DNA from: Oscillospiraceae bacterium
GTDB lineage: Bacteria > Bacillota > Clostridia > Oscillospirales > Acutalibacteraceae
Length of the DNA: 53,766 nucleotides
NCBI GenBank assembly: GCA_015066205.1
Contig: SVOV01000015.1
Location: 1-53,766, forward strand
Direction of reading: 5' to 3'
Below, one piece after another: positions 20,911 through 39,370 of this stretch. The notes under the pieces are model-generated. The model did no database searches. It saw nothing but the letters and a program-made list of their open reading frames with translations, and was not told the DNA's origin. Numbering within the stretch: the stretch's first letter is position 1; every line of letters starts with the position of its first letter. The translations under genes were made by a program, and so were the position numbers.

Positions 20911-20984
20911 GCGGGTGTAGTTCAGCGGTAGAATCCCAGCCTTCCAAGCTGGTCGTGTGGGTTCGACTCCCATCACCCGCTCCA
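20911..20984 (+). tRNA. tRNA-Gly(TCC)
   Basis: 74 nt including an encoded CCA. Acceptor GCGGGTG pairs with CACCCGC, discriminator T. The anticodon stem CCAGC/GCTGG holds a loop with anticodon TCC, and the T-arm has the GTTCGACTC loop. The U discriminator is usual for bacterial glycine tRNA. It has its own promoter and terminator. Confidence 0.97.
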
Positions 20985-20986
20985 TG

Positions 20987-21022
20987 AAAAACGACAAGTT
21001 TCGACAGAAACTTGTCGTTTTT
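20987..21022 (+). terminator. Intrinsic terminator of tRNA-Gly
   Basis: Perfect 16-bp stem (20987-21002 with 21007-21022) around the loop GACA, ending in five T. The palindrome array begins directly after it. Confidence 0.9.
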
Positions 21023-21023
21023 C

Positions 21024-21194
21024 AATGATATCCGTTCCTTGGCACGAACGGGTGATATATCTTCGATATGATATCCACCTTCGGTGGGTGATATATGCCT
21101 GCGGCATATGAAGGAACGGATATTATATCATATTTGCTCTGCAAATATATCATACGGCAACGCCGTATATCATATCGCGTAGCGATATATCATT
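21024..21194 (+). repeat. Palindrome array 1a (GTGATAT-linker type)
   Basis: Seven short hairpins, mostly 5-6 bp stems with 3-base loops: 21032-21051, 21057-21069, 21075-21087, 21095-21107, 21132-21146, 21154-21166 and 21174-21186. Linkers are TGATAT-like in the left half and the complement ATATCAT in the right half. A long-range 13-bp pairing (21028-21040 with 21111-21123) competes with the first hairpin. A diverged copy lies at 22128-22299. No coding potential. Confidence 0.85.
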
Positions 21195-21228
21195 TATTCG
21201 AGAGTTCGAATTCATACAGGAAATTGCT

Positions 21229-21430
21229 GAAAATATCCTTTTCAACGAAATTTGCCCTTCGGGCAAGTGAAATAGCTTCGCTGTGAAATATTTGCTTCGC
21301 AAATGTGAAATATTCGCTAACGCGAATGTGGGCAAATTTTATTTCACATTGCGACCAAGGGGAGCAATATTTCACAATTTACGGAGTAAATTATTTCACC
21401 GTGAGCGCAAGCGAACGATTTCACTGAAAA
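21229..21430 (+). repeat. Palindrome array 1b (GTGAAAT-linker type)
   Basis: Second array, adjoining 1a, with hairpins such as TTGCCC-ttc-GGGCAA (21252-21266), ATTTGC-ttc-GCAAAT and ATTCGC-taac-GCGAAT. GTGAAAT links the left half and ATTTCAC the right half. A 10-bp long-range pairing joins 21248-21257 with 21330-21339, again competing with the first hairpin. Together with 1a it fills the ~470 bp between the tRNA-Gly terminator and the next gene. Confidence 0.8.
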
Positions 21431-21488
21431 CAGTAAGAGTCAAATCCATCCGAAAGTGTTAATATTCAGAATTAAGGCGGTGTAATCT

Positions 21489-21845
21489 GTGCTTTTTGGT
21501 GTTAAGGTAATAAATACTTTTTCAGTCGGGAATAATAAGCATTTTTATGAAGAGCTGATACTGGGTGTTGAAGCGGATTCCTTTGATGATGCTTATAAAA
21601 AGGCAGAAGACTACATTAAAGAGTCTTTATGTGAATACGAAAACCCTGACGGAGAAAGAGTAACGGTCAGGGCGGAAGCCGTTGATTGCTTTCTTTCTTA
21701 TGATGAGGAGAATGGTGTCCGCGAGGTGTTTTCCTCTTTTAATTCTAACCGCAGTAATATACCTGAAAATGATTTCTATAAGCTTTTGGTTCACGCCTGT
21801 GACAGGGAAGAGCTTTTGCCGCTCAGAAACAAGGATTATAACTGA
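21489..21845 (+). CDS. DUF4288-like small protein
   Basis: 118 residues from a GTG with AAGGCGGTG upstream (21474-21482). It starts FGVKVINTFSV, has EELILGVEADSFDDAYKKAE and then DGERVTVRAEAVDCFLSYDE, a pattern like DUF4288 proteins (beta-strand, helix rich in Ala/Lys/Glu, beta-strands). The role is unknown. No membrane span or signal peptide. It lies alone between array 1b and the tRNA-Arg promoter; no clear promoter or terminator of its own was found. Confidence 0.6.
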   Translation: MLFGVKVINTFSVGNNKHFYEELILGVEADSFDDAYKKAEDYIKESLCEYENPDGERVTVRAEAVDCFLSYDEENGVREVFSSFNSNRSNIPENDFYKLLVHACDREELLPLRNKDYN

Positions 21846-21946
21846 TATACTATCAGCTTTACGGAAACAGTGTATATCATCCTATAAGCAGTTTTTCATT
21901 TAATATGAATTAATATAATATTTTATAAATAATTTAATATTTTATA

Positions 21947-21975
21947 TTGACAAACGGTGTTAATTCGATTATAAT
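21947..21975 (+). promoter_or_regulatory. Consensus promoter of tRNA-Arg
   Basis: TTGACA at 21947-21952 and TATAAT at 21970-21975, spacer 17 bp, both hexamers perfect, after a very AT-rich stretch. Confidence 0.92.
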
Positions 21976-22008
21976 ACCTATGCTATCCGAACAAAGGTCG
22001 GTTTAGTT

Positions 22009-22085
22009 GCGCTTCTAGCTCAGCTGGATAGAGCAACTGCCTTCTAAGCAGTAGGTCAGGGGTTCGAGTCCCTTGAAGCGCGCCA
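22009..22085 (+). tRNA. tRNA-Arg(TCT)
   Basis: 77 nt including an encoded CCA. Acceptor GCGCTTC pairs with GAAGCGC, discriminator G. The anticodon stem ACTGC/GCAGT holds anticodon TCT, which reads AGA/AGG, the Arg codons used most in this window. D-arm AGCTCAGCTGGATAGAGC and T-arm GGTTCGAGTCC are standard. Confidence 0.97.
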
Positions 22086-22094
22086 TGAAAAAAG

Positions 22095-22127
22095 TCCCTT
22101 TTGTCTACCGACAAAAGGGATTTTTTT
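22095..22127 (+). terminator. Intrinsic terminator of tRNA-Arg
   Basis: 11-bp stem TCCCTTTTGTC/GACAAAAGGGA (22095-22105 with 22110-22120), 4-base loop, then seven T. Confidence 0.9.
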
Positions 22128-22299
22128 CAATGATATCCGTTCCTTGCGGAACGGGTGATATATCTTCGATATGATATCGCTCTGCGAGCGATGATATATG
22201 CCTTCGGCATATAAGGGAACGGATATTATATCATATTTGCGGGCGCAAATATATCATACGGCAACGCCGTATATCATATCGCGTTAGCGATATATCATT
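22128..22299 (+). repeat. Palindrome array 2 (diverged copy of array 1a)
   Basis: Same order of hairpins and linkers as array 1a, starting at the same point after a tRNA terminator. The first hairpin is 7 bp (22137-22143 with 22148-22154). The third is ATCGCTC-tgc-GAGCGAT (22176-22192) where array 1a has CCACC-ttc-GGTGG: sequence differs, pairing is kept. Long-range pairing joins 22133-22143 with 22216-22226. Fills the gap before the gene at 22362. Confidence 0.85.
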
Positions 22300-27004: not shown

Positions 27005-27622
27005 TCAGCCGTCACTGTTTCTTTTGTTTCTCACAGCCTCGCTGAGGGCGGAAAAACAATTCTCACTGTAAAACTTTATGAGAAGCTCTGCACATTCTGT
27101 TTTTGATAAGGGATCACGGTCCTCAAACCAATGAAGAAGAATACTTCTGAATCCGCCTATAACATAATACATATGATAAATGTATTCCTTTGCTTCCTCT
27201 TCGGGAAGAATCTGTGTGATAACTTCAGTGAATTTTTCTTCGGTAAGAGTCATTATTCGTTTTATAAGAGTTTCTCCGTGTGACGATGTAAGGAACAGCT
27301 TATAGTATTCTTTGTTTTTGTCAAGAAAATCAATACCTGTCCGGATAGCTTTTGACGGGTCAAGAATTATATTCTCCATTCCTAACAATTCAAGGGTTTC
27401 GTTGAGTGTTTCAACGATATTTGACTGGATCGCCGTGTAAAGATCATAAACATCAAGATAATGTGCATAGAAGGTTCCTCTTGATATGTTAGCTCTTTCA
27501 ACGATATCTGTTACCGTTATTTTTGACATATCCTTTTCGTTAAGAAGCTCTGCGAATGCCTGTTTTATAAGATGTCTTGATCGGGCAGCATTTTTGTGAG
27601 AAGATTTTTTGCCGACTGCCAT
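27005..27622 (-). CDS. TetR/AcrR family transcriptional regulator
   Basis: 205 residues. The N-terminal helix-turn-helix is clear: RSRHLIKQAFAELLNEKD, then ITVTDIVERANISRGTFYAH around residues 35-55, and an aromatic-rich C-terminal ligand or dimer domain (EYIYHMYYVIGGFRSILLHW). Start set by AGGAGG six bases upstream. It is the last gene of the minus-strand operon, 17 bp after the aldolase. A role in sensing a product or substrate of that operon is inferred from position. Confidence 0.88.
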   Translation of the reverse strand: MAVGKKSSHKNAARSRHLIKQAFAELLNEKDMSKITVTDIVERANISRGTFYAHYLDVYDLYTAIQSNIVETLNETLELLGMENIILDPSKAIRTGIDFLDKNKEYYKLFLTSSHGETLIKRIMTLTEEKFTEVITQILPEEEAKEYIYHMYYVIGGFRSILLHWFEDRDPLSKTECAELLIKFYSENCFSALSEAVRNKRNSDG

Positions 27623-27639
27623 TTCCTGCCTCCTGACAA

Positions 27640-28854
27640 TTACTTTTTCTTTGAATACTTTGTTTTATAAATAATTCTCATTAATGTACACTCAAGGGGA
27701 TTTATGTATTTGTCATCTCTTCCGTAAGCGGAAGCGGCAACAAAGGATTTACATCCCTTTTCAGCAACAAGCTTTACTGCATCTGCCTCTTCCATTGAAG
27801 AGCCTGCACATAAAGCACCGTTATGTCTGATCATTACAGCATCGCGGTATTTCATTTTTCTGACAGCCTTTTTTGCTGATTTAAGGCGGTCGTTGACATT
27901 ATATTCTGCTGTCTTGAGAGAAACGCCGACTATCTGTGCAAAGTCATCAAGGAAGGGCTTTACCGTAATTCCTGTTTTTGAAAGCTCAAGTGTTGCCTTT
28001 TCCTTTGAATGGGTAATTGCATTGATATCCTTTCTCTTTTTATATATAGCAGTATGGAGCTCTGCGGTTTCGGGATAATCAGCTTCCTTATCAAGGGGCT
28101 TACCTGTGATGAGGTCTATCATAATTGCGTCGCCGCCGTCAACGGGGGTCATTTCAAAAACACCGTAAAGTCTTTCTGAATTATAAGCGGGAAGCTCGTC
28201 ACCTGTAGCCTCTGTCATAAGATTTCCTGAAATATATTCGCAAAGAGAAGCAAATGTATCAATGGTTCTTCCTGTAAGCTCACGGTATCTTTCAAGGAAC
28301 ATTGCCTTGCAGGCTTCTTCAAGCTCATTTGCTACAAGGAACGCATTATCAAGATCCGTTCCCATGCATACTGCACCGTGATGCTTCATAAGTATAGCCT
28401 TTGAGGAAGAACGGCTTATGGCGGCGGTAACTCCCTCACGGAGAGTTTTTGTGCCGGGAAGACCGTATGCCGCAAGAGGAACATGCTTTCCTATGATCTC
28501 AGCGCTTTTTCCTTCAAGATGGTTTATGTCATAGCCCTTAAGACCTGCAACAGAAGCCATTGTCTGATGGGTATGAATAACAAAATTTACATCAGATCTA
28601 AGTCTGTAGCAAGCGGCGTGAACGCCCTTTTCCGAGGAGGGCTTTATATCGCCCTCATAGGAAAGGTCGGAAATTTTAACAAGTACGATATCATCGGGGG
28701 TAAGTCCCATATAATCTCTTCCGCTGGGAGTAATTACAAAAGACTCTTCGTCAATTCTGCAGCTGACATTACCCCAGGTGCGCTGAATAAGTCCCTTTTC
28801 GCAAAGAAGCTTACCGGCTCTTACAACATCAAGCTTGGCCTGCATTATATCCAT
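27640..28854 (-). CDS. Tandem class II aldolase/adducin-domain protein
   Basis: 404 residues made of two aldolase II units (about 1-195 and 220-395). Unit 1 keeps the zinc and catalytic pattern: TWGNVSCR, ITPSGRDYMGL, Glu in PSSEKGVH, HTH in VIHTHQT and the HH in MKHHGAVCMG. Unit 2 is worn down: ITHSK in place of HTH and RHNGALCAG in place of HHG, so it is probably structural or acts on another ligand. Family members cleave sugar phosphates to dihydroxyacetone phosphate and an aldehyde, or epimerise them. Ribosome site GAGGTG seven bases before the ATG. Operon with the aminotransferase 31 bp upstream. Confidence 0.8.
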   Translation of the reverse strand: MDIMQAKLDVVRAGKLLCEKGLIQRTWGNVSCRIDEESFVITPSGRDYMGLTPDDIVLVKISDLSYEGDIKPSSEKGVHAACYRLRSDVNFVIHTHQTMASVAGLKGYDINHLEGKSAEIIGKHVPLAAYGLPGTKTLREGVTAAISRSSSKAILMKHHGAVCMGTDLDNAFLVANELEEACKAMFLERYRELTGRTIDTFASLCEYISGNLMTEATGDELPAYNSERLYGVFEMTPVDGGDAIMIDLITGKPLDKEADYPETAELHTAIYKKRKDINAITHSKEKATLELSKTGITVKPFLDDFAQIVGVSLKTAEYNVNDRLKSAKKAVRKMKYRDAVMIRHNGALCAGSSMEEADAVKLVAEKGCKSFVAASAYGRDDKYINPLECTLMRIIYKTKYSKKK

Positions 28855-28885
28855 TGGCTTGCACCTCGTTTATTTTAGTGAAAAA

Positions 28886-30367
28886 TCAGTCGTTTTCTTT
28901 TACTGCGATATTCTCAAATACACGGTCGAAGCGGGAGAGTGCATCATCAATATCAGCTTCTGTATAAGCAGCACTTGTGTAAAGACGGCTGCCTGCAAGA
29001 GTTACAAGACCTTCTGCCATATAAGCCGCACCCATATGAGTCATTTCTTTCTTTCTGATATCGGTCTGCTTGAGAACTGAAGGAATCGTCCAAGGCTTGT
29101 TCCAGTTGATAGAGAACTGAAGAGTACCTACTGTTTCAAGATGGCAGATAGAGCCCTGATTGAATGCTACGAAGGGAAGATGGCGTCTTTCGATGATCTC
29201 CTGAAGACCCTTTGTGATTCTGTCGCCCATAAGACCTGCCTTCTGGCAAGCGTTCGTTCTGTCCATTTCTTCAAGAGTGAAATAACCTGCAGCACAGGAG
29301 AGGGGATTTGCGGAAAGTGTACCGCCGCAGAATGCCTTCTTGACCTTAACTGCACCGTCAAGACCTGCGCCGAGATACTTCATATATTCTCTCTTACCGC
29401 CGACACCGCCTGCTCCGGGGTATCCGCCGGCAATTACCTTACCGAAAATTGTAAGGTCAGGTGAGCATCCGAAATAGCCCTGAGCACCTGCCATACCTAC
29501 ACGGAAGCCTGTAACGACCTCATCGAATACAAGAAGAGCACCGTATTTGCGGCAAAGTCTTTCAACGCCCTTGCAGAAATCCTTGTCAACGGGACGGGAA
29601 CCGCTTTCGGGGCCGAGTGCCTCGAGATAAACGGCAGCTGTACCGCCGCGGAGGAGATTCTTTCTGAGAACTCTTTCAAGAGAATCAAGATCGCCGGGGA
29701 AGAATTCCTGAGTATCTCTCATGATTCTTCCGGGAACACCGTTAGCCTGAGTAGCCTTTGTTCCGGGAATACGGATGCCGTAGCCGAGCTGATCTGACCA
29801 GCCGTGGTATGCTCCGCCCATTTTAACTATGTTCTTGTTCTTTGTTGCAAGTCTTGCAATACGGGCAGCAAGCATACAAGCTTCTGTACCTGACTGAAGC
29901 ATACGGAACATTTCAACTGTTTCCATGCTGTCGGAGATCTTTTTTGCAAGCTTATATTCAAATTCGTGGAAAAGACCTGTTGAAGGACCGCAGGTGTTAA
30001 GAAGATCGATAACCTGCTCTCTTACCTCGGGAGGATTTGAGCCGAGAACTGTGGGACCGCCTGCCTGAAGAAAATCGTAATACTCATTTCCGTCAATATC
30101 GTAAAGCTTACAGCCTGAAGCAGCTGTGAAAACGAGAGGGAAGGGATAGTTGAAGGCAAGGTTATGCTGAACGCCGCCGGGGATGATCTTCTTTGCTTCG
30201 TCGATCATTTCCTTTGACTTTGCGCATTTCTTTTCAAAATATTCTTCCTCATACTTTGAAAGTGCTTCGGGAGTAATAGTGTAAACCGGCTTTTTGATAA
30301 GCTCATCAAGCTGCTTATTGACAGCAGCTGCATCGGGATATTGAGAAATTGCAAAACGGGTATCCAT
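28886..30367 (-). CDS. Class III aminotransferase, glutamate-1-semialdehyde-aminomutase-like
   Basis: PLP enzyme of fold type I. 493 residues from the ATG at 30367, preferred because AAAGG sits 11 bases before it and only 2 bases before the ATG at 30376. Motifs: GGAYHGWSDQ (cofactor ring), VFDEVVTGFR (PLP pyridine Asp), and Lys310 in IFGKVIAGGYP for the Schiff base. It is longer than HemL (~430) with a ~60-residue N-terminal extension. No other tetrapyrrole gene is near, so a haem role is unlikely; transamination of an amino sugar or amino alcohol precursor fits the neighbours better. A second, shorter relative lies at 33305. Confidence 0.82.
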   Translation of the reverse strand: MDTRFAISQYPDAAAVNKQLDELIKKPVYTITPEALSKYEEEYFEKKCAKSKEMIDEAKKIIPGGVQHNLAFNYPFPLVFTAASGCKLYDIDGNEYYDFLQAGGPTVLGSNPPEVREQVIDLLNTCGPSTGLFHEFEYKLAKKISDSMETVEMFRMLQSGTEACMLAARIARLATKNKNIVKMGGAYHGWSDQLGYGIRIPGTKATQANGVPGRIMRDTQEFFPGDLDSLERVLRKNLLRGGTAAVYLEALGPESGSRPVDKDFCKGVERLCRKYGALLVFDEVVTGFRVGMAGAQGYFGCSPDLTIFGKVIAGGYPGAGGVGGKREYMKYLGAGLDGAVKVKKAFCGGTLSANPLSCAAGYFTLEEMDRTNACQKAGLMGDRITKGLQEIIERRHLPFVAFNQGSICHLETVGTLQFSINWNKPWTIPSVLKQTDIRKKEMTHMGAAYMAEGLVTLAGSRLYTSAAYTEADIDDALSRFDRVFENIAVKEND

Positions 30368-30414
30368 AATGATCATTTCCTTTCATTTATATTAAAATAA
30401 ATTTAACATCTTAA

Positions 30415-32335: not shown

Positions 32336-32368
32336 ACTGTCCGTATTTTTGCGGACAGTGCTTTTTTT
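32336..32368 (+). terminator. Intrinsic terminator of the 41-residue peptide gene
   Basis: 8-bp stem ACTGTCCG/CGGACAGT (32336-32343 with 32352-32359), then GC and seven T. Confidence 0.88.
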
Positions 32369-32442: not shown

Positions 32443-32471
32443 TTGACTTTATATTTGCCTTTTGTTAAAAT
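32443..32471 (+). promoter_or_regulatory. Extended -10 promoter of the SCP2/aminotransferase/transketolase operon
   Basis: TTGACT at 32443-32448 and TAAAAT at 32466-32471, spacer 17 bp, with TGT before the -10 box. A small hairpin AAGGGG/CCCCTT (32491-32508) lies in the leader just ahead of the ribosome site. Confidence 0.8.
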
Positions 32472-32528
32472 GTAATGTGTATAATATTAAAAGGGGAGTA
32501 TTGCCCCTTGAAAACGGAGGAATGCGCT

Positions 32529-33290
32529 TTGACAGATGCAAGAACATTGGCATACATCAATATGTATGGTATTCTCGGAACTTTAGAGAATCTTTGTGAG
32601 CTTGACGAAAATGCAAGAGCTCTTCTTACAAACAAAAAACCGATCTCCATCGGCTTTGAGGTTAAGAACGGCCCTGCTGCAACAATTACATTCAAGAACG
32701 GATACTGCCGAATGGAAGACGGCTGCCGTTCCGACTGTACCATCAAGCTTCCTTTCTCATCCTGTGAGAAATTCAACGGAATGATTGACGGTACCGTTAC
32801 CCCTATCCCCAGCAAAGGTTTTCTTCATATAGGATTCCTTCTCAAGTCCTTTATCGGTCTTACCGATCTTCTTACAAAGTATATGAGACCCGATCCCGAG
32901 GACCTCAAGGATGAGAAATTCTTTGAGATCAGCACATATCTTATGTTCTATACAATTACCGTAGCATTGGCTCAGATAGGTAATCAGGATGCTATAGGTA
33001 AGTTCAGTGCCGATCACATCGTAGACGGCGATATCCTTATGAGTATCGCAGGCGGTCCCAAGGCTACTCTTCGTGTCAAGAATCATCATATTCTTACCAT
33101 CAAGAAGGACATGGGTAATCCCAGAGCTCTTATGGAGTTCCAGGGAGTTAAGCTTGCAAGAGAGCTCTTTGAAGGCAATGTAAACTCAATAGCCTGTATC
33201 GGTGAAGGAAAGATCACTATGGGCGGTATGATCTCAATGATAGATAATGTCAACAGAATTCTTGACAGAGTTGCACTCTATCTTGCATAA
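32529..33290 (+). CDS. SCP2-like lipid-carrier-type protein 1
   Basis: 253 residues from a TTG at 32529, eight bases after GGAGG (32516-32520); a longer frame from 32475 has no ribosome site and overlaps the leader hairpin. Two SCP2-like halves are visible. The first has GFEVKNGPAATITFKNG and IKLPFSSCEKFNGMIDG. The second has DGDILMSIAGGPKATLRV and ALMEFQGVKLARELFEG, then a G-x-G-K-I-T-M-G-G strand and closing helix. SCP2 folds bind lipids or fatty acyl-CoA. It shares its layout with the protein at 36502. First gene of the operon; assignment rests on pattern, not on a search. Confidence 0.55.
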   Translation: MTDARTLAYINMYGILGTLENLCELDENARALLTNKKPISIGFEVKNGPAATITFKNGYCRMEDGCRSDCTIKLPFSSCEKFNGMIDGTVTPIPSKGFLHIGFLLKSFIGLTDLLTKYMRPDPEDLKDEKFFEISTYLMFYTITVALAQIGNQDAIGKFSADHIVDGDILMSIAGGPKATLRVKNHHILTIKKDMGNPRALMEFQGVKLARELFEGNVNSIACIGEGKITMGGMISMIDNVNRILDRVALYLA

Positions 33291-33304
33291 GGGAGGAAAA
33301 AATA

Positions 33305-34555
33305 ATGGCAACCAAAATCAATACATATACAAAGAGCCGTGAGTGGTTCGACAGAGCAACAAAGGTCGTTCCGTCAGGTGTTTACGGACATCTCGGTCCT
33401 GCAGAAGGAAACTTTATGCCTGTAACCTCGTTCCCTCTTATGGGTGACAGAGCTCAGGGCTCATATTTCTGGGATGTAGACGGCAACAGATTCATTGACT
33501 ATATGTGCGCATACGGTCCCAATGTTCTCGGTTACAATGACCCCGATGTTGATGCTGCTGCAATGGAGCAGCTCAAAAAGGGTAACTGTATGACATCTCC
33601 CTCTTATAAGATGGTAGAATTTGCAGAGCTTCTTGTTGATACCGTTGCTTGTGCAGACTGGGCATTCTTTGCAAAGAACGGTAACGATGTTACCACTGCA
33701 GCAATTATGACAGCAAGAGCCGCAACCCACCGTAAAAAGATCGTTTTTATAAACGGATATTATCACGGCGTTTCTCCCTGGACACAGAAAATCGACTATC
33801 CCGGCATTATTCCCGAGGATGTTGCAAATAACCTCTATATCGACTGGAATGATTTTGATCAGCTTCAGAAGGTATTTGATGACAATAAGGGCGAGATCGC
33901 AGCCTTTATTTCAACACCTTATATGCACGGCAACTATCTTGACAACAGTCTTCCTGCCGACGGCTATTGGAAGAAGGTAAGAGAGCTGTGCACAGCAAAC
34001 GGAACGGTTCTCATCGTTGACGATGTCCGTTGCGGCTTCAGACTTGATCTTGCAGGCTCCGACCATTACTACGGTTTTGAAGCTGACCTTATCTGCTTCT
34101 GTAAGGCTCTCGCAAACGGCTATAATGTATCAGCTCTTTGCGGTAAGGATTCTCTTAAGAACGCAGTAAGCTCACTTTCATACACAGGCTCATACTGGCT
34201 CAGTGCCATGCCTTTTGCTGCAGGTATTGCCTGTATCAATAAAATGAAGGAGCTTGATACACCTAAGATGTTCCGCGAGCTCGGACTTAAGCTCACTGAC
34301 GGGCTTAAGGAGGTTGCAACGGCAAACGGCTTCAATATGGTAGTTTCAGGCGAACCCTCACTCTTCTATTTAAGACTTGCAGACGACGATTCACTCTTTA
34401 TTCATCAGGACTGGATTCAGGAATGTGTCAAGAGAGGTATCTTCTTCGCAGGACACCACAATCACTTTATCAATGCTTCTCTTACTGAAGAGGATATCAA
34501 GTTTACTCTTGATGTTGCAGATGAAGCATTCAAAGCAATCAGAGCAAAATATTAA
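33305..34555 (+). CDS. Class III aminotransferase, glutamate-1-semialdehyde-aminomutase-like
   Basis: 416 residues, fold type I PLP enzyme. It starts with SREWFDRATKVVPSGVYGH, typical of HemL-like enzymes. Motifs: GYYHGVSPWTQ, LIVDDVRCGFR for the PLP-ring Asp, and Lys267 in FCKALANGYNVSA. It sits between the SCP2-like gene and a split transketolase, with 14 bp before and 41 bp after, so the substrate may be the ketone made by the transketolase. Haem synthesis is unlikely since no hem gene is near. It is shorter than, and diverged from, the enzyme at 28886. Confidence 0.82.
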   Translation: MATKINTYTKSREWFDRATKVVPSGVYGHLGPAEGNFMPVTSFPLMGDRAQGSYFWDVDGNRFIDYMCAYGPNVLGYNDPDVDAAAMEQLKKGNCMTSPSYKMVEFAELLVDTVACADWAFFAKNGNDVTTAAIMTARAATHRKKIVFINGYYHGVSPWTQKIDYPGIIPEDVANNLYIDWNDFDQLQKVFDDNKGEIAAFISTPYMHGNYLDNSLPADGYWKKVRELCTANGTVLIVDDVRCGFRLDLAGSDHYYGFEADLICFCKALANGYNVSALCGKDSLKNAVSSLSYTGSYWLSAMPFAAGIACINKMKELDTPKMFRELGLKLTDGLKEVATANGFNMVVSGEPSLFYLRLADDDSLFIHQDWIQECVKRGIFFAGHHNHFINASLTEEDIKFTLDVADEAFKAIRAKY

Positions 34556-34596
34556 TAGGGTGAAAAGAGTAACCCGAAATAAGGAGGAAAAAAACT

Positions 34597-35469
34597 ATGC
34601 CTTTAACAAAGCAAGAGTGGCTTGATCTTGAGAAAAAAGCCCACGAACTCCGTAAACTTACCCTTGATACAACATATTGGGCAGGTTCGGCACATATCGG
34701 CGGCGGTCTCAGTGTTCTTGATATTATGACTGTACTTTATCATAAGTACATGAATATCAAGGTTGAAGATCCCAACTGGGAAGACAGAGACAGATTTATC
34801 CTTTCAAAGGGACATGCAGGCGTTTCCTATGCCGCAACTCTTTGTGACTACGGCTTCAACGATGTTGAAATGCTTAAGACCTTTAACCTTTCAGGCTCAA
34901 AGATGGGTATGCATCTTGACTCCAATAAGGTTGTCGGTGTTGACGCTTCAACAGGCTCACTCGGCCACGGTATGTCAATAGCAGTAGGTACTGCTCTTGC
35001 AGCCCGTCTTCAGGGTAAGGACTATAAGACATTCGTTGTTCTCGGCGACGGTGAATGTGACGAAGGCTCAAACTGGGAAGCAGCAATGAGTGCCGTTCAC
35101 TATAAGACCACTAATATGATCAGTTTTGTTGACCGTAACAAGTGTATGATCGACGGCAGAACAGAAGATGTTATGAATCTTGAACCCTTCTGTGCAAAGT
35201 GGGAAGCATTCGGCTTCATCGTTAAGGAAATTGACGGTAACAACATCAGAGAGCTTTGCGAAGCTATTGATTTTGCTTATGAAAACAAGACCGACAAGCC
35301 CGTTATGATCGTTGCAAATACTCTTAAGGGCTGCGGTATCGACTTTATTGAAGACGATTATCTCTGGCATTACGGCGCATTCGATGATGAAAAGTATGAG
35401 AGAGGCAAGAAGGCTCTTGAAGAATCATACAAGAAGCGTTTAGCAAGAGTAGAAAAGGAGGCAAAATAA
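34597..35469 (+). CDS. Transketolase, N-terminal (TPP pyrophosphate-binding) subunit
   Basis: 290 residues forming the first half of a two-gene transketolase. Thiamine-pyrophosphate motifs: SAHIGGGLSVLDIM, SLGHGMSIAVGTALAAR and GDGECDEGSNWEA, with the Asp-Asn pair provided by VDRNKCMIDG. AAGGAGG upstream. The partner subunit starts one base after the stop. Split forms are common in Firmicutes and in natural-product pathways; this pair lies outside any pentose-phosphate gene set, which favours a special role. Confidence 0.92.
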   Translation: MPLTKQEWLDLEKKAHELRKLTLDTTYWAGSAHIGGGLSVLDIMTVLYHKYMNIKVEDPNWEDRDRFILSKGHAGVSYAATLCDYGFNDVEMLKTFNLSGSKMGMHLDSNKVVGVDASTGSLGHGMSIAVGTALAARLQGKDYKTFVVLGDGECDEGSNWEAAMSAVHYKTTNMISFVDRNKCMIDGRTEDVMNLEPFCAKWEAFGFIVKEIDGNNIRELCEAIDFAYENKTDKPVMIVANTLKGCGIDFIEDDYLWHYGAFDDEKYERGKKALEESYKKRLARVEKEAK

Positions 35470-35470
35470 G

Positions 35471-36481
35471 ATGGCAGGCGGAATGACTTATACAGCTGTT
35501 GATTCCACATCTCTTTCAACTGCTGAAATTTACGGTAAGGCTCTCGTTGAGCTTGGAAGAGCTCACCCTGAAGTAGTAGCACTTACTGCGGACCTTGCAA
35601 AGTCCACAAAGATCGGTGATTTCCAGAAAGAATTCCCCGACAGATTTTTCAATGTAGGTATTGCTGAACAGAATCTTTTCGGCGTAGCTGCAGGTATGGC
35701 TAAGGCAGGTCTTGTACCCTTCCTTTCGACCTTCTCACAGTTTGCATCCCTTCGTGCTGCAGACCAGCTTTCAACAGACCTTTGCTATCAGAATATCAAT
35801 GCAAAGGTTATTGCAACTCATTCAGGAACATCCTTCGGTCAGGCAGGCTCAACTCATCACGCTATCACTGACCTTGCAGTAACCCGTGCAATGCCTAATC
35901 TCACTGTTATCTGCCCCGCAGACGGTGTTGAAACATATAATGCTGTTATGGCAGCTTATGAAACTCCCGGCCCCTTCTATATCAGAATCAACCGCGGATT
36001 TGACCGTGTACTTTATAAGGACAGCGACTACGGCTTTGAGATCGGTAAGGCTGTTACCGTAACAGAAGGTACTGACCTTACAATCATTGCCTGCGGTTCT
36101 TGTGTATTCCAGGCTGTTCAGGCTGCTGACTTCCTTGCTAAGGCAGACGGTCTCAAGATCAGAGTTCTTGATATGCACACAATTAAGCCCATTGACAAGG
36201 AAGCTATTGTCAAGGCTGTTATGGATACCCGCCGTATTATCACAGTTGAAGACCATAATGTTCTCGGCGGTCTCGGCAGTGCTGTTGCTGAGGTTGTTGT
36301 TGAATCCGGTAAGGGCTGTGCATTCAAGAAGCTCGGTATTCAGGACAAATTCGCTCCCATCGGTCTTCACGAAGACATTATGTCTGACCTCGGTATTGAT
36401 GCTAACGGTATCATTGCTGCTGTCCGTGAAGTAATGAAGGCTGATTTCGAGCTTGATGATGACTGGGATGACGAGGTTTAA
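35471..36481 (+). CDS. Transketolase, C-terminal (pyrimidine-binding) subunit
   Basis: 336 residues, second half of the split transketolase. The catalytic Glu block is FFNVGIAEQNLFGVAAGMAK. THSGTSFGQAGSTHHAITDL, VICPADGVET and the C-terminal Rossmann-like part (LTIIACGSCV, VEDHNVLGGLGSAV) follow the family pattern. Acidic C-terminal end (ELDDDWDDEV). It starts one base after the N-subunit stop, so the two are made together. Confidence 0.92.
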   Translation: MAGGMTYTAVDSTSLSTAEIYGKALVELGRAHPEVVALTADLAKSTKIGDFQKEFPDRFFNVGIAEQNLFGVAAGMAKAGLVPFLSTFSQFASLRAADQLSTDLCYQNINAKVIATHSGTSFGQAGSTHHAITDLAVTRAMPNLTVICPADGVETYNAVMAAYETPGPFYIRINRGFDRVLYKDSDYGFEIGKAVTVTEGTDLTIIACGSCVFQAVQAADFLAKADGLKIRVLDMHTIKPIDKEAIVKAVMDTRRIITVEDHNVLGGLGSAVAEVVVESGKGCAFKKLGIQDKFAPIGLHEDIMSDLGIDANGIIAAVREVMKADFELDDDWDDEV

Positions 36482-36501
36482 TTCAGGAAAGGGTTGAAAT
36501 T

Positions 36502-37314
36502 ATGGCATCTGAAGCTATTTATACTAATAAAATATTCCTTTGCGGTGCTCTGCCTCTTCTGAAAACCATCGTAGCAGATGTTCCTTCTCTCAAGTCCAAG
36601 TTCAAGAATGTTCACTGTGTTTATCAGGTAAGCTGTCTTGACCCTGAAGCTCCTGACGGAAAATGGGCAACTCATTTCGTTGTAAACGGTGATGAATGGC
36701 TCGTTCACGCAAATAAGGTTGCTCACAGAGTAGGCAAGCAGAAATATGTTGAGCTTGAATTCAAGAGTGTTGATGCTATGAATGCATTCTTCAAGGGCAA
36801 GATCGGTCCCGCAACACTTCCCAAGATGAAGGGCGTCAATTTTATATACGAATTCGGCGTATTTATGATGGCTCTTCTTAAAATGGCAAACCTTTTAGGT
36901 CTTGAAACACCTCCCGAGGATGAGGAAACAAAGCGTCTTCTTGTTAAGTGCTATTTCTATCTTCTTTCCGTAGGTATTTCAACACTTAATAAGCTCGGTC
37001 ACGAAAAGATTCATGACTGGACACTCAAGAGCCCCGACCGTGTTTATGCATGGAAGGTCAACGGTGAAGACAGCGTTTCTGCTTTCATCCGTATCAAGGC
37101 AGGTAAGTCAAAGGCAGGTAAGGGTGAATATAAGAGAGCAATGCCTTTCTTCACAATGCGCTTTGATTCTCTTGATTCCGCTCTCGGTATCCTTATGTCC
37201 ATTGATGATATGCTTGAATCCGTTCGCTCGGGCAAGCTTATTATGGACGGTGCTCCCGAATTCGGTGCACAGATAGGCGAATATATGCTTCTTGTAGGCG
37301 CACTCGCAAAATAA
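36502..37314 (+). CDS. SCP2-like lipid-carrier-type protein 2
   Basis: 270 residues, AAAGGG upstream, 20 bp after the transketolase. It is built like the protein at 32529: first half with ATHFVVNGDEWLVHANKVAH and ELEFKSVDAMNAFFKGKIG, a helical middle (FMMALLKMANLLGLETP), then a second half with YAWKVNGEDSVSAFIRIKAG, FTMRFDSLDSALGILMS and SGKLIMDGAPEFGAQIGEYM. The closing Gly-Lys-Leu-x-Met-x-Gly strand and helix match SCP2 folds. Probably a lipid or acyl carrier or sensor. Paralogy with the 32529 protein is judged by eye. Confidence 0.55.
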   Translation: MASEAIYTNKIFLCGALPLLKTIVADVPSLKSKFKNVHCVYQVSCLDPEAPDGKWATHFVVNGDEWLVHANKVAHRVGKQKYVELEFKSVDAMNAFFKGKIGPATLPKMKGVNFIYEFGVFMMALLKMANLLGLETPPEDEETKRLLVKCYFYLLSVGISTLNKLGHEKIHDWTLKSPDRVYAWKVNGEDSVSAFIRIKAGKSKAGKGEYKRAMPFFTMRFDSLDSALGILMSIDDMLESVRSGKLIMDGAPEFGAQIGEYMLLVGALAK

Positions 37315-37325
37315 AATTAATATCA

Positions 37326-37366
37326 ACCGCCGACAGGCTCAATACCGGTCGGCGGTATTGTTTGAT
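37326..37366 (+). terminator. Hairpin after SCP2-like protein 2, weak terminator
   Basis: 9-bp stem ACCGCCGAC/GTCGGCGGT (37326-37334 with 37348-37356) followed by an interrupted T-run. Read-through into the acyltransferase at 37369 is likely, as no separate promoter is seen. Confidence 0.6.
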
Positions 37367-37368
37367 TT

Positions 37369-38652
37369 ATGAAGAAGAAAATAAATTCTAAAAAAGGGTT
37401 CTGGCTGAAGCTTGATAATGCAGCCAAGATATTTCCCGGACAAAACACAAGCACCTGGTCGAATTCCTTCAGAGTCTGTTATGAACTGAAAGAAAAAATC
37501 GATCCCCGAATATTACAACAGGCACTTATTGATATAATGCCGAGATTTTCCTGCTATGATGTCAGAATACGTTATGGCTTTTTTTGGTTTTATCTGGAAA
37601 AGAATGAGGATATACCTGAAATTCAGCCTGATATTAAAAATCCTTGCCACGCTATAAGATTCAATGAGAACAACAAGTTTCTGTTTAAGGTATATTACCA
37701 CGGAAACAGAATTGCTGTTGATGTCTATCATGTTCTGACGGACGGACACGGAGGTGCGCTGTTTTTGTCAACCCTTGTGGCAAGATATCTGAAGCTTCTC
37801 GGAAAGGATATACCGGCAGGCGGCTTTGTGCTTGATATCAATGATGAAAACACTCCCGAGGAGCTGGAGGACTCATTTGTTAAAAATGCTACCTCAAAGG
37901 CAAAATTCAAGCGTGCAGATAAATTTGTATACCACGCAAAGGGTACAAAAATGCCGCTTCATACCGTAAATATTACATCAGGAATTATTCCCTTTGACAA
38001 GCTTCACGCCCTGTCTAAAGAAAAAGGCGTGACCGTAACGGAGTTTCTCGCTGCGGTTATGCTTGATGTTCTTTGCAAAAAGCAGAGAAGAGAAAAGAAA
38101 AAAATGAAAGAGGTCAGTATTCAGATACCTATTGACCTCAGGCGTACCTTTGACAGCAGGACGCTGAGAAATTTTACCATATGTCTCAGGGTCAAGGTTG
38201 ACCCCAATAAGGGTGAATACACCTTTGATGAGCTTCTTGAACAGGTCAAGTATCAGCTGAGGCTCGAAAAAAATGAAAAAGAAGTAAATATGATGATAAC
38301 CGCAAATATGGGACTTGAAAGAAATATCCTCGTGCGGGCTCTCCCTTTGTTTATCAAGAATATCGGTGTCGGAATCTCTTTTGCAATAACTGCCGAGCAG
38401 ACCACATCATCTCTTATAACAAATCTCGGTGCCGTGGATATTCCTCCCGAAATGCGTGAACATATTGATAAATTTATTTTTATGCCGGCTCCCGGAAAGC
38501 TTAATGCCGCAAGGCTCGGGGTCGCAACGGTGAATAATAAGCTTTGTATAACATTTGCAAATATCTATAAGGAAAGCGATGTTGAAAGAGATTTTTTCAC
38601 AGCTTTCATAAAAATGGGAATTCCCGTGAAAATAGAAAGCAACCGGGAATAA
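37369..38652 (+). CDS. Condensation-superfamily acyltransferase (alcohol acetyltransferase-like)
   Basis: 427 residues of the CoA-dependent acyltransferase/condensation fold. The catalytic H-x3-D-G motif is intact at His121-Gly126 (YHVLTDGHGG). A second typical segment is VSIQIPIDLRRTFDSRTLRN with NFTICLRVKV near 260-280. Such enzymes move acyl groups to alcohols, amines or sugars and include wax-ester and mycobacterial PapA types. The next gene starts 13 bp on. As last steps of the operon above, it could acylate the product; that link is inferred from position. Confidence 0.75.
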   Translation: MKKKINSKKGFWLKLDNAAKIFPGQNTSTWSNSFRVCYELKEKIDPRILQQALIDIMPRFSCYDVRIRYGFFWFYLEKNEDIPEIQPDIKNPCHAIRFNENNKFLFKVYYHGNRIAVDVYHVLTDGHGGALFLSTLVARYLKLLGKDIPAGGFVLDINDENTPEELEDSFVKNATSKAKFKRADKFVYHAKGTKMPLHTVNITSGIIPFDKLHALSKEKGVTVTEFLAAVMLDVLCKKQRREKKKMKEVSIQIPIDLRRTFDSRTLRNFTICLRVKVDPNKGEYTFDELLEQVKYQLRLEKNEKEVNMMITANMGLERNILVRALPLFIKNIGVGISFAITAEQTTSSLITNLGAVDIPPEMREHIDKFIFMPAPGKLNAARLGVATVNNKLCITFANIYKESDVERDFFTAFIKMGIPVKIESNRE

Positions 38653-38665
38653 AGGAGATGAAAAC

Positions 38666-39370
38666 TTGTCTTACTGTGTAAACTGCGGTGTTGAGCTTGA
38701 TTCGAGTGCGAAGAAATGCGCACTTTGTTCAACTCCTGTTATAAATCCTAATATCAAAGATTTCAGTTCTGAGGATAAGCCGTTTTCTGAGGAGCTGCAG
38801 ATCCCGAAAGGTATAAAGAAAAGATTTATTGCCTTCGTCATCTCCGTTACTATGCTTGTACCCAACATCGTTATGTTTTTTCTCAATGTGTTTTTTATAA
38901 GACAGGGCTTCTGGTCGCTTTATGTTTTTGCTGCAAGCCTTCTCATATGGACATTGTTTGTTTTTCCGCTTTTTACGGAAAAGATAAAGCCGTTTCTGCT
39001 CTGGGGCTTTGATACCTTTGCCGTAAGTATATTCTTTACTATTATTTTTAAGGTTCACGGCGGTTATGATGCTGTGCTGAATTCTGTTCTTTGTACAATT
39101 GCTTTGGTTTCTGTCAGTGTGCTTCTTATTATGCTGTGGCTCAAATCAAGAAAACGCCATTGGACAAGCGTTGTTGTTATAACTCTGCTTTTATCCTCGG
39201 TCATATCGGTGCTTTCGGGTATTGCAACAGCATCCTTTGTGAAGAACTATAATTTCTTTGTTGTCGGTATCGTTATCGGAATATGTGCATTTGTACTGAT
39301 GCTTTTCTTTGTGTACTGCAACAGAAGTAAGCATATCCGTGCCTGGCTCAATAAAGCCTTCTATATATGA
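38666..39370 (+). CDS. Zinc-ribbon multi-span membrane protein (DUF6320-like)
   Basis: 234 residues from a TTG start with AAAGGAGATG upstream. Zinc ribbon Cys 4, 7, 18 and 21 (YCVNCG ... CALC), then about six hydrophobic spans from ~50 to the end (FIAFVISVTMLVPNIVMFF; LYVFAASLLIWTLFVFPLF). Clostridia often pair an alcohol-acetyltransferase-like gene with a DUF6320 protein of this design, so the two probably work together at the membrane. The DUF number is from memory and should be searched. Confidence 0.65.
   Translation: MSYCVNCGVELDSSAKKCALCSTPVINPNIKDFSSEDKPFSEELQIPKGIKKRFIAFVISVTMLVPNIVMFFLNVFFIRQGFWSLYVFAASLLIWTLFVFPLFTEKIKPFLLWGFDTFAVSIFFTIIFKVHGGYDAVLNSVLCTIALVSVSVLLIMLWLKSRKRHWTSVVVITLLLSSVISVLSGIATASFVKNYNFFVVGIVIGICAFVLMLFFVYCNRSKHIRAWLNKAFYI

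Follow-up and report, generated by a model that had tools for sequence, protein, structure and literature searches.

A five-gene transketolase-aminotransferase cassette with paired SCP2-type proteins in Bacillota and its possible role in the turnover of sphingoid-type bases

FumI of Sphingopyxis MTA144, a fumonisin/aminopentol aminotransferase of solved structure (6hbs, 6hbv), acts on a sphinganine-like 2-amino-3-ol; it is described as passing the 2-amino group of hydrolysed fumonisin B1 on to pyruvate (PMC2933618), and fumonisins are described as similar to sphingosine and sphinganine (PMC9858248). The transketolase of Carboxydothermus hydrogenoformans (6yaj, 6yak) is split into two subunits. 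Sphingoid bases, the product or substrate class that we propose for the locus described here, are also that of the serine palmitoyltransferase route. In an Oscillospiraceae bacterium (assembly GCA_015066205.1, contig SVOV01000015.1) we found relatives of FumI and of the split transketolase joined with two SCP2-type proteins in one cassette, O1 to O5. The whole stretch analysed, hereafter the window, is 53,766 nucleotides long and is contig C47 of an 83-contig, 2.71 Mb genome that is about 85% complete. Our best explanation, which we hold at a little under an even chance, is that O1-O5 would form a carrier-assisted two-step path that links a long-chain 2-amino-1,3-diol with a fatty aldehyde, both directions being covered; the lipid substrate, the order of the steps and the direction we infer from sequence. 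The genes of the cassette, with their positions in the window, are:

32529..33290, plus strand: O1, tandem SCP2-type protein, 253 amino acids (probable TTG start, GGAGG at 32516-32520)
33305..34555, plus strand: O2, class III pyridoxal phosphate (PLP) aminotransferase related to FumI, 416 amino acids (Aminotran_3, 134 bits)
34597..35469, plus strand: O3, transketolase N-terminal subunit, 290 amino acids (Pfam Transketolase_N)
35471..36481, plus strand: O4, transketolase C-terminal subunit, 336 amino acids (Pfam Transket_pyr and Transketolase_C)
36502..37314, plus strand: O5, O1 homologue of SCP2 type, 270 amino acids (profile comparison through O1)

Together with two further genes, O6 and O7, they make a row of seven on the plus strand between 32.5 and 39.4 kb, separated in order by 14, 41, 1, 20, 54 and 13 bp; a preliminary description of this DNA had correctly named the aminotransferase and the split transketolase, as the Pfam matches confirm, and had given the gaps between O1 and O5 as 1-41 bp, which they are. 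The mechanically listed open reading frame of O1 starts at 32475; the family profile starts at TTG 32529, which, lying behind the GGAGG, is most likely the translation start.

Using an alignment of O5, we searched a collection of species genomes and obtained 185 relatives, of which the best 80 were used. The loci compared number 104 and are not 104 genomes, with two each from G052, G768 and isolate RGIG3744. The complete order O1-O2-O3-O4-O5 was present in 75 of the 104 loci, a contig end interrupting 20 of the remaining 29 and nine being informative exceptions (L037, L085, L101, L102, L103, L208, L187, L209, L235). The best O5 relatives belong to uncultured or metagenome-assembled Clostridia, Oscillospiraceae and similar, many of them from the herbivore gut. 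Matches to the O5 query were found in 19 of 26 genomes at the level of the genus, in 3 of 197 at that of the order, in 5 of 391 at that of the class and in 6 of 398 at that of the phylum, the own genome being included in each of these counts, and in 13 of 97 genomes from another class; the profile used for the phylum and other-class samples also detects O1, and the match in G739 and G1068 is O1. These whole-genome samples place the cassette in three or more classes of the phylum. When viral sequences were scanned with the O5 alignment no relative turned up, and so no sign of phage carriage. The conserved unit O1-O5 is real and is widely but sporadically distributed; we regard it as new at the system level, with each part in or near a known family.

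The transketolase of the cassette is an additional copy. Among 29 cassette genomes, Transket_pyr matches number exactly three in 21 and two to eight in the others, and the three of the window genome are a split transketolase of housekeeping type (contig C49), the cassette copy and a DXS-size protein on contig C6. In a tree of O4-type proteins (34 cassette rows and 15 of the 27 housekeeping rows), cassette and housekeeping copies fell on opposite sides of a branch with support of 100/99. Two other assignments were rejected: O4 as DXS (215 bits to DXS against 274 to transketolase, with the separate DXS-size protein on C6), and O3/O4 as the sole transketolase of the genome, given the second split transketolase in a separate clade.

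Residues were mapped to E. coli numbering via an alignment with the human enzyme, the equivalence of E. coli and human positions being our assumption. The cassette enzyme retains the thiamine diphosphate (ThDP) and pyrimidine domains with the catalytic His and Glu, the His lying in O3; these catalytic residues are common to it and to the C. hydrogenoformans transketolase, the nearest solved relative of O3/O4. The latter keeps the equivalents of R358, D469 and R91, whereas the cassette clade replaces D469, R91 and mostly R358. In the window the Arg91 equivalent is Asn97 of O3, the D469 and R358 equivalents are Ala125 and Ala18 of O4, and O4 retains the equivalents of H461, R520, S385, E411 and H473. 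At the D469 position Ala was found in 78/78 relatives and in 14/14 readable distant copies (92/92), as in the window, and Asp in 27/27 housekeeping copies from cassette genomes; at the Arg91 position Asn was found in 74/75 relatives and 14/14 distant copies (88/89), and Arg in 27/27 housekeeping copies. The R358 equivalent is Ala, Ser or Thr in 75/78 copies and Arg in three, which belong to a variant lacking O1 and O2; among the 14 distant copies it is Arg in one and Lys in two. The H461 and R520 equivalents are retained in every cassette copy read. The S385 equivalent is Ser, with Thr in three cassette copies, and is little informative because 25 of 27 housekeeping copies have Ala there. The housekeeping set comprises 27 rows from 27 of the 29 genomes, L132 and L161 (unsplit, G485) and L135 (24-28% identical, G052) being left out, and the reading of distant copies excludes L234, an 87-residue transketolase fragment.

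Arg91 is described as the salt-bridge partner of D469 (PMC6310800). Substitutions of D469 or of its yeast equivalent are described as increasing activity on aliphatic aldehydes (PMC6310800, PMC5573996), D469T being among those that helped, and for yeast D477E the increase on two aliphatic aldehydes is given as 50- to 100-fold (PMC5573996). Loss of the Asp469 equivalent in all readable copies, together with FumI as the nearest relative of O2, favours an acceptor without an alpha-hydroxyl, perhaps a hydrophobic one.

In a search of solved structures with O2, FumI (6hbs) was the nearest by a wide margin: it scored 295 bits, and the runner-up, a glutamate-semialdehyde (GSA) aminomutase, 164. The two proteins are 39% identical in a near full-length alignment and share an aligned lysine that we take to be the PLP lysine. 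O2 is a relative of FumI that in our tree stands outside the FumI clade, and transamination of a long-chain 2-amino-3-ol is predicted for it. The five FumI-like plasmid regions that we compared carry no annotated transketolase or SCP2 gene, and one carries a keto-acid dehydrogenase. In that one, an Agrobacterium plasmid (L184, 3110-5284), this ThDP enzyme is encoded two genes ahead of the FumI-like aminotransferase.

The SCP2-like character of O1 and O5 is unequally supported. A Pfam scan of the window's own O1 and O5 gave no SCP2 match. Among their relatives SCP2 matches were found in 22 of 31 O1 rows (best E 6.3e-5), in both halves of the protein, and in 3 of 34 O5 rows (best E 0.0035); scanned singly, one of ten proteins passed the curated Pfam cut-off (O1 of L060, 23.7 vs 21.3 bits), the O5-like protein of L101 staying under it at 20.2 bits and that of L103 giving no SCP2 match. 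Profile comparison with hhalign aligned the two halves of O1 with SCP2 proteins at E 2.6e-5 and 3.8e-5 (probability 75% and 71%), the SCP2 alignment being of six proteins chosen by position, with L089 possibly in a wrong frame and L090, for which no ORF was obtained, left out. O1 and O5 aligned with each other over their full length (258 columns, E 5e-21, 99.4%), and eight control comparisons drawn from O1, O5, SCP2 and the profiles of O2, O3, O4 and O6 gave probabilities of 0.5% or less. Because the direct match of O5 is weak and that between O1 and O5 strong, the SCP2 assignment of O5 runs via O1. By these profile matches, O1 is classed as a tandem SCP2-type protein and O5 as its homologue. 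They resemble the SCP2 superfamily (PF02036), O1 in both its halves and O5, probably, by way of its likeness to O1; they differ from it in having two units per protein, in that nearly all members scanned singly stay under the Pfam cut-off, and in forming two paralogues of which one is retained per enzyme. Thus the SCP2 proposal of the preliminary description held strongly for O1 and indirectly for O5, and the two other claims on which that description had staked itself, a transketolase pair distinct from the housekeeping enzyme and a gene order conserved beyond this genome, were both borne out.

The cassette consists of two modules. In three draft genomes these persist apart: G052 has O1 and O2 on contig C131 and O3-O4-O5 with an aldehyde dehydrogenase on C18, G768 is split likewise between C8 and C24, and in G670 O1 and O2 lie on C27 and locus L085 holds O3-O5 only. 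O1 was found in six of six tested genomes with O2 and in none of four without a close O2 (G482, G318, G485, G519). Since the modules persist apart and O1 tracks O2, the aminotransferase has O1 as its partner and the transketolase has O5. G482, G318 and G485 hold a variant made up of O3-O4-O5 and, behind them, genes for a zinc alcohol dehydrogenase and a MerR regulator, with an ALDH3-class aldehyde dehydrogenase (ALDH) in addition in G485. At the rearranged locus L235, O1 is divergent and O3-O4 are followed by an aldehyde ferredoxin oxidoreductase (AOR), with no O5 or O2 seen in the stretch; thiolase, short-chain dehydrogenase/reductase (SDR) and acyl-CoA dehydrogenase genes of beta-oxidation type lie ahead of it.

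In the path that we propose, O2 assisted by O1 would interconvert a long-chain 2-amino-1,3-diol, i.e. a sphingoid-type base, and a 1,3-dihydroxy-2-ketone, exchanging the amino group with an amino acid/keto acid pair. O3 and O4 assisted by O5 would then move the C1-C2 ketol between this ketone and a sugar phosphate, the other lipid partner being a long-chain aldehyde, for which a transketolase carrying Ala in place of the Asp that reads the hydroxyl may be suited. O1 and O5 would each hold the greasy substrate for their own enzyme. Run towards breakdown, the base would become the ketone, and the ketone a fatty aldehyde plus a sugar phosphate two carbons longer. That Bacillota make or destroy sphingoid-type bases by such new chemistry, in either direction, with each enzyme fed by its own tandem SCP2-type carrier, is possible, although we would sooner doubt it than assert it; in the same joint reading the making route would dispense with serine palmitoyltransferase, and the destroying route with phosphorylation and sphingosine-1-phosphate lyase. 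In the open-access text of PubMed Central we found no description of a lipid-acting transketolase, of a transketolase-SCP2 pairing or of a split transketolase joined with an aminotransferase, and among the papers listed nothing on point for gut sphinganine degradation or Firmicutes sphingolipids. If true, uncultured gut Clostridia and further lineages of the phylum would possess a second kind of chemistry by which sphingoid-type lipids are made or destroyed; the cassette would bear on which gut bacteria produce or remove bioactive long-chain bases and would offer a natural template for transketolases accepting aliphatic aldehydes, an enzyme-engineering target.

The ordinary transketolase reaction is described as reversible, with 3S products (PMC5573996). 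On the proposed path the chemistry would likewise run both ways, and we slightly prefer breakdown or detoxification over synthesis because of the FumI precedent and the aldehyde-oxidising-type genes beside the transketolase module at 4 of the 104 loci (ALDH3-class in L095 and L103; AOR in L235 and, on the opposite strand, in L229). Further points counted towards breakdown are the MerR genes (3 loci), the TetR genes (2 loci) and the beta-oxidation-type genes of L235. The opposite direction, a subset of our best explanation that we consider unlikely, would lead from a fatty aldehyde and a sugar-phosphate ketol over the 1,3-dihydroxy-2-ketone to a sphingoid-type base without serine palmitoyltransferase. 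It gains from the distribution of AOS-family enzymes, probed with TIGR01825 on the 29 cassette genomes: there was no match in 14, a match of at most 26 bits in 12, and a full-length member in G482, G318 and G485. Absence of serine palmitoyltransferase, which the preliminary description had proposed to check, was supported insofar as no full-length AOS-family member was found in 26 of the 29 genomes, many of them incomplete, including that of the window at about 85% completeness (best match 18 bits); the three others lack O1 and a close O2. Six AOS-family proteins exceeded 360 bits; of the five examined (L108 of G318 being excluded) two are glycine C-acetyltransferases above cut-off and one is ambiguous, and those at L107 1450-2637 (G482) and L125 1426-2601 (G485) come closest to serine palmitoyltransferase models while scoring below the cut-off, L107 being also nearest to a solved bacterial serine palmitoyltransferase (423 bits). 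Two of the three exceptions thus hold an enzyme nearest to serine palmitoyltransferase, which again favours synthesis. The cassette differs from that route in its chemistry as well as in these absences. Synthesis is also favoured by the frequency of O5 in the genus and by the neighbour clusters, compared over 82 loci of which some end downstream and named mostly by reading (eight through Pfam): among them there is no transporter or regulator family that keeps returning next to the cassette, an ABC ATPase cluster being present in 8 of 82 at varying distance. The same recurring neighbours speak against it, in that no acyltransferase, head-group or fatty-aldehyde-making gene was recognised among them, as do the adjoining aldehyde enzymes, ALDH3 being oxidising and AOR bidirectional. 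The ordinary transketolase product is 3S and common sphinganine is 3R, a difference that counts against synthesis.

Several observations weigh against the lipid path in either direction. Three of the four phosphate ligands are retained in O4, and one subclade has Arg or Lys at the fourth. In the tree of aminotransferases, which is midpoint-rooted, carries long-branch warnings and holds 20 of 24 non-redundant O2 rows (the partial O2 of L230 left out), FumI and its five plasmid relatives form a 100/100 group that excludes O2, and the five plasmid genes adjoin ABC transporters, a class II aldolase, a sugar kinase or a keto-acid dehydrogenase, i.e. a small-molecule setting. The alcohol dehydrogenase of the loci without O1 and O2 bears a weak likeness to polyol and threonine dehydrogenases, relatives of the aldehyde enzymes lie near just 4 of the 104 loci, and the best NCBIfam model for the ALDH of L103 is benzaldehyde dehydrogenase (460 bits vs a cut-off of 550). 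The direct match of O5 to SCP2 proteins reached E 0.0096 and a probability of 4%, a search of solved structures with the O1 and O5 profiles gave no match, and SCP2 folds occur in non-lipid proteins too. Finally, the helpful D469-type variants described in the sources cited are Glu and Thr, both polar, Asp-to-Ala not being among those described there (PMC6310800, PMC5573996).

A rival reading is a soluble amino-sugar or amino-polyol pathway in which the SCP2-like proteins would be scaffolds or small-molecule binders. For it speak the retained H461 and R520 equivalents and, in most copies, S385, the small-molecule surroundings of FumI-like genes elsewhere, and relatives of a class II aldolase at 21 and of an FGGY kinase at 12 of the 104 loci. 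We nevertheless judge it rather improbable, as almost all copies have lost the acceptor-hydroxyl residue together with its Arg partner, a pair of related SCP2-type proteins is retained in step with the two enzymes, and aldolase and kinase are limited to a minority of loci. Loss of D469 removes recognition of an alpha-hydroxyl and is silent on chain length, so that a small or aromatic acceptor of formaldehyde, acetaldehyde or benzaldehyde type, from which products like serinol, threoninol or a phenyl-aminodiol would arise, would fit this loss too; the L103 ALDH, nearest to the benzaldehyde dehydrogenase model though under its cut-off, points the same way. With 411 bits this ALDH also aligns to human fatty aldehyde dehydrogenase of solved structure, non-specifically, since class 3 ALDHs score alike, and small or aromatic acceptors leave the two SCP2-type proteins unexplained; such products seem to us quite unlikely. 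The benzaldehyde match of L103 and the weak direct SCP2 match of O5 shifted our estimates for these rivals slightly. Least credible, and very improbable indeed, is the complete pathway of the preliminary description, ending in acylation by O6. In the window O6 stands 54 bp behind O5 and, as that description stated, has its H-x3-D-G motif intact (HVLTDG). A terminator-like hairpin lies ahead of O6, and O6 and O7 were found in 6 of 82 loci, together in all six; the conserved unit accordingly ends at O5 and the acylation step falls away. The idea of ketol transfer and transamination is partly supported, the residue losses and the relatedness to FumI fitting it in either direction. At L027 (16854-18844) O6 and O7 form an inverted pair 6-7 kb from the cassette.

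The other features of the window that concern the locus are:

32336..32359, plus strand: terminator-like hairpin, probably the end of the preceding unit (10-pair stem and T tail; consensus match only)
32443..32471, plus strand: promoter-like site TTGACT-17-TAAAAT with TG before the second hexamer (consensus score 10/12)
37340..37360, plus strand: terminator-like hairpin between O5 and O6 (consensus match only)
37369..38652, plus strand: O6, condensation-fold acyltransferase-like, outside the conserved cassette (Pfam AATase sub-threshold, 21.2 vs 22 bits)
38666..39370, plus strand: O7, zinc-ribbon membrane protein, outside the conserved cassette (Zn_Ribbon_1 below cut-off)
27640..28854, minus strand: class II aldolase-type protein, accompanying the cassette in a minority of lineages (its relative at L025 matches PF00596 in two stretches)
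28886..30376, minus strand: second class III aminotransferase, nearest to GSA aminomutase and not FumI-like (relatives in 19 of 82 loci)

The site of the single strong promoter proposed earlier scores 10/12, and the region holds 14 promoter-like sites against a mean of 15.4 after shuffling, i.e. no excess. For the neighbour survey over the 104 loci, nine neighbour proteins were chosen and their relatives sought at E 1e-20 in the available stretches. Class II aldolase relatives lie on the opposite strand at 20 of their 21 loci; the aldolase with the second aminotransferase, the FGGY kinase and an epimerase-type SDR were each considered as core members and rejected, each being present in a minority of loci. 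In two genomes of one family a TetR-family gene follows the cassette (L205 6128-6775, L206 7603-8250), with sub-threshold likeness to the ScbR, MtrR and FadR regulator models. In a distant genome, a protein 3.8 kb upstream of the cassette (L226 16588-17931, minus strand) matches Ceramidase_alk over 74 residues (38.3 bits vs a cut-off of 32.1); its relatives are present at 1 of 104 loci, and like the beta-oxidation-type genes of L235 it was considered but not relied on. In the window itself, a TetR-like gene (by reading), the class II aldolase-type gene and the GSA-type aminotransferase gene stand in a row on the minus strand (27005-30376), divergent from the cassette. Farther upstream, at 20911-22202, four matches to Gut-1 RNA (RF01706), three on the plus and one on the minus strand, lie among two tRNA matches.

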